Assembly (NCBI GenBank): GCA_011364925.1
Contig: RDOA01000030.1
Location: forward strand, 1 to 41,244
From: Promethearchaeota archaeon
Lineage (GTDB): Archaea; Asgardarchaeota; Lokiarchaeia; Sigyniarchaeales; SOKP01
Length of the DNA stretch: 41,244 bases
Direction: 5' to 3'
Shown: positions 1,209-13,868 of the stretch, in pieces
Layout of the letters: each line of letters starts with the position of its first letter
How positions within the stretch are numbered: position 1 is the first letter of the stretch
Program-made: the position numbers and the translations under genes
The notes under the pieces: generated by a model
Databases searched by the model: none
Told to the model about the DNA's origin: nothing
Seen by the model: only the letters and a program-made list of their open reading frames with translations

Positions 1209-1676
1209 ATGAAAGATAAATTTCAACTCATAGGTAAGAAAATTCAAGAATTTTCATTACCAAATACGAAAGGAGAAACAATAAATATTAGATCTTTTGA
1301 AGGAAAGAAAAATGTAATCGTCATATTGTTTCGGAGTATCAACTGACCTTACTGTAGATGGCATGCAGCACATTTAAGGAAAGATTATGAAAAATTCGGA
1401 GAAATGGAAACCGTCCTTTATCCAATTTTAGCAGATTCTGAAAATAATGCGAAAAAATTAGAACAAAAATATGCTCGTAAATATCCGATATTCTACGACC
1501 CAACAAAGAAGGTGCCAAAAATGCTGAATCAAGAGGTAAAATTATTAAAACTCGGGAGGATGCCGGGACTTTTGATTATAGATAAAGAAGGGATTATTCA
1601 ATATGCTTATTACGGAGACAGTATGAGTGATATTCCTGAGAATGAAATACTTTTCGAGGTATTAAAAAAAATATAA
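1209..1676 (+). CDS. Predicted selenoprotein, peroxiredoxin/thioredoxin-like (UxxC)
   Basis: Read through one in-frame TGA (1344-1346), this is a 155-residue AhpC/TSA-type thioredoxin-fold protein. Residues 1-45 give the usual N-terminal strand (IGKKIQEFSLPNTKGE) and the strand before the active site (VIVILFRSIN). The TGA is codon 46, followed by PYC, giving U46-P-Y-C49 where the family has CxxC. The same frame then continues with HLRKDYEKF, ILADSENNAKKLEQKY and PGLLIIDKEGIIQYAYYGDS, normal for the fold. No frameshift is needed, and the part before the TGA is as well conserved in style as the part after it. TGA decoded as selenocysteine is therefore the best reading. An automatic caller would probably report only a truncated protein from 1404. 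Likely role: thiol/selenol peroxidase or redox protein. The selenocysteine machinery is not in this window. Confidence 0.85.
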
Positions 1677-13285: not shown

Positions 13286-13798
13286 ATGAACGACGAAGAA
13301 CCCCCAAGACCAAGTGGATTATCAGAGAATTCTATCGCACCAATATTTGATACAAAAGACATTTACGGAAAAGAAATGAACTTAGAGAACTTACTTGAAG
13401 AATATAACGGAGTTTTGATAGATTTTTTTCGAGGTAACTGGTGAAGCCACTGTAAAAAACATCTATATCTTCTTACAGAAAACATTAAAGAATTCGAGAG
13501 CAGAAATATTAAATTAATATCAATAGCTAGCGATAGTGAACGACTTCTGAGGAAATTTAAGGAAGAGAACAATTTTGCGATTGATATGATTTCAGATAGA
13601 GGGGCAAAAATCGCAAAGGATTACGATGTGTATTGGTTTGCTCCTGGTGGAGGAGGAACTATACCTATAAAACAAGCTGTACCGAGCAAATTTTTGATAA
13701 ACAAGGAAAGAAAAATTGTGTGGACGTACATCGGAAAGGATAAAACAGATAGACCCTCAATAGAAATGTTGACGACTATAATTGACGAAAAATTATAA
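13286..13798 (+). CDS. Predicted selenoprotein, thioredoxin/AhpC-like (WUxxC)
   Basis: A 170-residue AhpC/TSA-like protein when the in-frame TGA at 13442-13444 is read as selenocysteine (codon 53). The first part is MNDEEPPRPSGL, SIAPIFDTKDIYGKE and GVLIDFFRGNW. Then come U53-S-H-C56 and KKHLYLLTENIKEF, followed by IKLISIASDSERLLRKF, ISDRGAKIAKDYDVYW and PSKFLINKERKIVWTY, the normal order for this fold. Tryptophan directly before the UxxC matches the usual WCxxC active site. The frame is intact on both sides and the start ATG lies just after a TATA-like AT tract. It is a second, clearly diverged gene with TGA at the equivalent position to the one at 1209-1676. Likely a thiol/selenol redox enzyme. 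The region 3' of it is structured. Confidence 0.87.
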
Positions 13799-13868
13799 CC
13801 CCCTATGGATGAGTCGTGTATAAAAATTATGGATACATGAGGACAACCTTGCCCTGGTAGGGGACTCT
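13799..13868 (+). promoter_or_regulatory. Structured 3' region, SECIS candidate
   Basis: Directly after the stop of the second predicted selenoprotein. TCGTGTAT (13814-13821) pairs with ATACATGA (13833-13840), 8 bp with one G-U, around an A-rich loop (AAAAATTATGG). CCCCTA (13800-13805) pairs with TAGGGG (13858-13863). GAGTC/GACTC (13811-13815 / 13863-13867) is a competing helix. Unpaired ATGA occurs at both flanks of the central helix. Position, A-rich loop and ATGA are SECIS-like, but the fold does not match a published consensus that I can verify. A T-run at 13871-13877 follows and may terminate transcription. Confidence 0.4.

Follow-up and report, generated by a model that had tools for sequence, protein, structure and literature searches.

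Can an in-frame TGA that falls on the catalytic position of a redox protein be read as selenocysteine (Sec) in a Lokiarchaeia genome, and if so, what directs its decoding? The question is raised by a locus in a 41,244-nucleotide stretch (contig RDOA01000030.1, assembly GCA_011364925.1 of a Promethearchaeota archaeon), referred to here as the window. The gene, prxL-A, and the codon are the following.

1209–1676, + strand: prxL-A, gene of a predicted peroxiredoxin-like (Prx-like, AhpC/TSA) selenoprotein of 155 aa with one Sec (translation, Pfam, orthologues, structure model)
1344–1346, + strand: predicted Sec codon UGA, codon 46, motif U-P-Y-C (translation, orthologues, aligned column)

Translation of 1209–1676 yields 155 codons followed by TAA, and the TGA at codon 46 is the sole internal stop (context ...FRSIN-U-PYCRWH...). 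The initial annotation of this DNA had stated that the frame is open on either side of the TGA, that the codon is the first position of U-P-Y-C and that ordinary gene calling loses the N-terminal 65 residues with the active site. Translation bears out all of this: gene calling under table 11 starts at 1404 and returns only 1404–1676 (90 aa), from which those 65 residues are missing. On either side of the UGA, dN is much lower than dS, and the UGA/active-site column does not vary among 31 aligned homologues. Together with the structure model described below, this indicates that the reading frame is not due to chance. The initial annotation included neither a SECIS element nor the second UGA-containing gene of the window.

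The UGA is conserved among relatives. Matches to prxL were found in 53 of the 65 genomes of the same family, and the orthologues (identity about 57% or higher) all exhibit one TGA at the same codon; within the family the UGA is kept at protein identities of 58–80%. A scan of the phylum found prxL-A matches in 51 of 227 genomes at 1e-12. The initial annotation had proposed a search for Cys or Sec at codon 46 of the homologues: UGA is present there in 12 of 12 homologues from Chloroflexota/KSB1 (L009–L020; about 35–43% identical) and in all intact Asgard orthologues examined except one (L120, genome G156), which has GAT (Asp). A true stop codon at this position, or a sequencing error, leaving a pseudogene or two frames, would fit the split produced by standard gene calling, but this has next to no probability: the same UGA in dozens of independent genomes and in the 12 bacteria excludes the sequencing error considered in the initial annotation, and such conservation already refutes the whole explanation, against which the low dN/dS on either side and the invariant column also speak.

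The Asgard copies also include several variants. Paralogues with two UGA codons (U-x-x-U) are present in L121, L122 and L129, in tandem with a U-P-Y-C copy in the first two. A subclade (the second copy of L037 at 295–759, L048, L049 and L050) exhibits U-P-Y-A or U-P-Y-S and thus has no resolving Cys. Remnants of tandem copies were seen in L031 (2212–2439, with its 3' RNA element retained) and in L035 (with extra stops). L133 is a divergent Asgard UGA homologue (39%) in which the prxL-A RNA element was not recognised. One candidate orthologue (L135, E-value = 8e-13) was rejected as a regular BCP-type protein in which Thr occupies the Sec position.

With the UGA taken as a residue, the Pfam AhpC-TSA family matches residues 8–132 (E-value = 9e-23); over the full prxL-A length the AhpC/TSA domain (PF00578) scores 81 bits against a cut-off of 26. 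In the alignment, the UGA falls where members of the AhpC/TSA family have their catalytic Cys. A structure model built from 31 homologues, without templates, has a mean pLDDT of 95.5 and places residue 46 immediately N-terminal to the first active-site helix (47–58). Its nearest solved folds are peroxiredoxins of the BCP type (BCP/PrxQ; 3drn, Bcp1, TM 0.83, 22% identity), with ResA-type proteins also near (4nmu, TM 0.78). In contrast to both, prxL-A has a predicted Sec for Cys in a UxxC motif and lacks PxxxT/S before the nucleophile. The canonical peroxiredoxin motif PxxxT/S-x-x-C is absent from the prxL-A family sequences, in which position -7 is not Pro and position -3 relative to Sec is S, N, D, G or others. 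Because of this absence, "Prx-like thiol/selenol oxidoreductase" is the more cautious designation; the label "peroxiredoxin-like" of the initial annotation stands, and a true peroxiredoxin is doubtful. The score against the SelL-related redox protein model NF040769 is 46 bits, under the curated cut-off of 120. As such an oxidoreductase, the product would use the selenol at residue 46 to attack a peroxide or a disulfide, presumably its substrate, and Cys49 would act as the resolving residue.

The use of Sec by Asgard archaea has been published (PMC11227280, PMC9723677), and Prx-like (prxL) selenoproteins are known from 43.2% of the Sec-using Asgard genomes (PMC11227280). Those proteins are of the AhpC/TSA type with Sec in Lokiarchaeia, as in the window, and prxL-A is a further member of this already reported group.

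The host genome (G000; 3.9 Mb, completeness 100) was searched for the Sec machinery. SepSecS was identified over the cut-off (473 bits). A SelB homologue, the candidate EFSec, lies about 3.4 kb away on the same contig; it passes the Pfam model aSelB_III (archaeal domain III) and scores below the NCBIfam cut-off. A PSTK-like kinase was found with 168.7 bits across 248 positions, which is below the curated NCBIfam cut-off. The genome also contains two neighbouring selD genes with one UGA each and four frhD genes with two UGA codons each (L075–L078), each adjoined by an hdrA with one or two UGA codons to form four hdrA-frhD pairs. A tRNA-Sec was not recovered from the host genome by RF01852 or ARAGORN, and the best RF01852 matches (31.5 and 30.7 bits) are a tRNA-Gly and a tRNA-Leu. 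The tRNA-Sec of Lokiarchaeota is reported to carry a T-arm intron of 31 nt (PMC5330540, PMC9499178), which could explain why neither program recovered one. Of the Sec genes that the initial annotation had proposed to look for, SepSecS, selD, a SelB homologue and a PSTK-like gene were thus found, and tRNA-Sec was not. Measured by the published criterion of at least three Sec-system genes plus a known selenoprotein gene (PMC11227280), the genome, with its SepSecS, SelD, EFSec and PSTK candidates and its UGA-containing selD, hdrA and frhD, qualifies as Sec-using. The prediction of a selenoprotein is strongly supported by these genes and by the UGA kept in orthologues. Readthrough by itself names no residue, and a code change or a suppressor tRNA might insert another amino acid (e.g. 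Trp or Cys); this is scarcely credible, since the remaining window genes are open under table 11, UGA serves as a stop in relatives (e.g. L035), Sec genes are present and the codon aligns with a catalytic Cys.

What, then, would direct the decoding? A conserved block lies immediately 3' of the stop codon in all 31 family loci. In the window it comprises the following features.

1684–1754, + strand: putative SECIS of prxL-A, a three-way junction in the 3' UTR (fold, covariation, models)
1684–1689 and 1749–1754, + strand: P1, AUUUGG pairing with CCAAAU (double changes between A-U and G-C among relatives)
1691–1728, + strand: P2, 11-bp stem 1691–1701/1718–1728 with an A-rich apical loop at 1702–1717 (covariation)
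apex of P2, + strand: GA...AUGA, a possible kink-loop (apex count in relatives)
1731–1747, + strand: P3, stem 1731–1735/1743–1747 with the loop UAGCCAC at 1736–1742 (pairing, loop conservation)

The minimum free energy fold of 1684–1754 is exactly this P1/P2/P3 junction (z = -2.63; none of 200 shuffles reached its stability). Two models match the window, R1 with 71.3 bits and R2 with 73 bits (1683–1755), the window being in the training set of both. Covariation is well above the controls. The 31 loci exhibit 42 double-change cells, where shuffles give 10.0; when loci of other families and classes are added (34 loci), the count is 62 against 12.3, with 15 pairs changed on both sides against 7.0. 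These shuffles ignore relatedness. Slid versions of the alignment, which preserve it, have at most 58% of cells paired, compared with 90.9% for the proposed structure of the 34 loci. P3 is paired in 97% of cells (pair 58-68 is G-C in 21 loci, C-G in 10 and U-A in 1), and its loop stays UAGCCA in nearly all loci. RNAalifold recovered only part of the helices from the raw alignment, in which P2 is out of register. The fit is poor at some GC-rich or distant loci: neither R1 nor R2 matched L126, L130 or L131, though UAGCCA and a short P3 are readable there by eye. Outside prxL, the prxL model had no match in the selD or frhD loci, and the UAGCCA pattern had few matches in the host genome, no more than a reversed-pattern control.

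The published model of the Asgard SECIS consists of a single hairpin bearing AUGA_[G/A]A (PMC11227280), and a review describes the Lokiarchaeota SECIS as having only one apical loop (PMC9499178). The prxL-A element shares with the eSECIS-like elements of Asgard archaea its 3' UTR position, a lower stem, a long upper stem (7–15 bp being the criterion) and an A-rich apical loop. It differs from them in the third arm P3 with the loop UAGCCAN and in the Watson-Crick pairs at the base of P2. Those pairs covary (11-51 to 13-49), so that the published AUGA_GA quartet is absent there, whereas the reported prxL SECIS elements are mainly of type I with AUGA_GA (PMC11227280). The GAA_A bulge and G-C clamps of the euryarchaeal SECIS are likewise absent, P2 being a continuous A-U-rich helix. 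At the apex of P2, 16 of 33 relatives have GA...[AG]UGA, which is the AUGA_GA core with its strands swapped, compared with 1.1 expected from shuffled loops; the remainder lack it. For this reason, a general kink-loop core of the prxL-A element is not part of the main claim.

The second UGA-containing gene of the window, prxL-B, allows a comparison with an element that fits the published prxL SECIS type (PMC11227280).

13286–13798, + strand: prxL-B, second UGA gene, AhpC/TSA, 170 aa, motif U-S-H-C (AhpC-TSA E-value = 4.4e-22; UGA in homologues)
13442–13444, + strand: UGA codon of prxL-B (UGA in homologues of relatives)
13800–13863, + strand: putative SECIS of prxL-B (read from the sequence; core in homologues)
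13809–13812 and 13842–13843, + strand: AUGA_GA core of this element, with an apical AAAAA (core in homologues)
13800–13804 and 13859–13863, + strand: P1 of this element, with P3 as ACC-UUGCCCU-GGU (read from the sequence)

The product of prxL-B is 23% identical to that of prxL-A, and the UGA of prxL-B recurs at the same codon in homologues from relatives. The AUGA_GA core is present in 18 of 18 prxL-B homologues, window included. Single-sequence folding of the element is not significant (z = -1.02). Automatic picking of P1 and P3 is noisy in these A-T-rich sequences, and only the core count and a test of 7-nt loops were used: P3 loops of 7 nt with the pattern NNG[C/U] occur in 14 of the 18, against 1.5 in shuffles. 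In L143, the prxL-B element has the AUGA_GA core beside a P3 loop of the prxL-A type (UAGCCAA), and from its sequence this locus may be taken as a bridge between the two types of elements. In the selD genes of the same clade, P1 encloses a classical AUGA_GA hairpin and, after it, a second one (P3); pairing holds in 97.0% of cells, and 42 double-change cells are observed against 9.1, the second hairpin included. The four frhD elements of the host genome, singly read or folded, exhibit AUGA...GA, a later hairpin and a closing stem. Elements of the published type in selD, frhD and prxL-B thus appear to carry the third arm P3 too.

The P1 and covarying P3 of selD, the 7-nt P3 loops of prxL-B and L143 tie the prxL-A element to SECIS. 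Its tie to Sec function comes from L120, the sole orthologue with Asp, whose locus gave no R1 or R2 match; this is one genome searched with models only, and a diverged element could have escaped them. L120 would be a natural loss of Sec, in which UGA and the recognisable element are gone together. We consider it highly probable that prxL-A encodes a Sec protein decoded by the archaeal route and directed by a SECIS variant at 1684–1754.

It might still be argued that prxL-A is a selenoprotein gene whose 3' element serves mRNA stability or regulation, the true signal being elsewhere, either within the coding sequence or at some distance past the stop. As this explanation would have it, the basal AUGA_GA of the published model is missing from the element, and no Rfam family matched it in the window. 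We nevertheless find it improbable. The element lies directly past the stop codon and is linked to the UGA, it was not found in L120, where the UGA has been lost, and it shares the junction and P3 with AUGA_GA elements, L143 forming the bridge. In the 60 nt past the prxL-A UGA, a bacterial-type SECIS hairpin was not seen and no significant structure is present (z = -0.82).

Decoding through the SECIS variant would proceed as follows. PSTK would phosphorylate Ser-tRNA-Sec, SepSecS would convert the product with selenophosphate supplied by SelD, and EFSec would deliver Sec-tRNA to UGA 1344–1346. The RNA element directly past the stop would direct this decoding as an Asgard SECIS variant in which Watson-Crick pairs have replaced the basal AUGA_GA quartet, with a pair of the same kind (GA...AUGA) located at the apex of P2 in roughly half the relatives. 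The frame, the conserved UGA, the protein family, the Sec genes and the RNA structure emerge from comparison of sequences; from these we infer the insertion of Sec at codon 46, the directing role of 1684–1754, its binder and the substrate of the protein.

A broader proposal, to which we would give an even chance, is that Lokiarchaeota SECIS elements are three-way junctions with P3 as a second recognition arm, absent from published models and often with a 7-nt loop NNG[C/U]NNN. The prxL-A elements would then be a distinct class recognised through P1, P2 and the UAGCCA loop, in which the basal kink-turn quartet was lost or shifted to the apex, where it forms a kink-loop. In the main text of PMC11227280 neither "hairpin" nor "additional stem" occurs, and no mention of a third arm was found there; judged against that main text and the review, the three-way junction is likely a new SECIS feature. 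The third arm bears on how archaea recognise a SECIS: no SBP2 is known from them, their SelB failed to bind its SECIS, and the SECIS of a Loki vhuU did not function in Methanococcus maripaludis (PMC11881835). P3 is common to several selenoprotein genes, with a near-invariant loop in one of them; it is a candidate contact for a protein or the ribosome, and its conservation makes recognition testable by mutation. Asgard SECIS elements serve arguments on the origin of the eukaryotic system. Searches with AUGA_GA only would miss or misplace elements of the prxL-A type.

Bacterial Prx-like thiol:disulfide oxidoreductase selenoproteins with UxxC and UxxU are tabulated in PMC13188914. They share PF00578 and UxxC with prxL-A, and the Chloroflexota homologues share the position of the UGA. 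In contrast to prxL-A, a short hairpin (UGGCGC-AGUU-GCGCCA or similar) is conserved in the bacterial homologues about 20–38 nt past the UGA, with a single-sequence folding energy that is not significant, and SelA is over the cut-off in all 12 Chloroflexota/KSB1 genomes. In the prxL tree, the bacterial sequences and the Asgard sequences each fall into a supported clade of their own (98/92, 100/94). If the Sec gene was shared between bacteria and Asgard archaea, its decoding signal was swapped. A further homologue, on a plasmid of Thermomicrobium roseum (L152), has UGA at the same codon and a hairpin of the bacterial type; the record annotates only a 43-codon "hypothetical protein" there.
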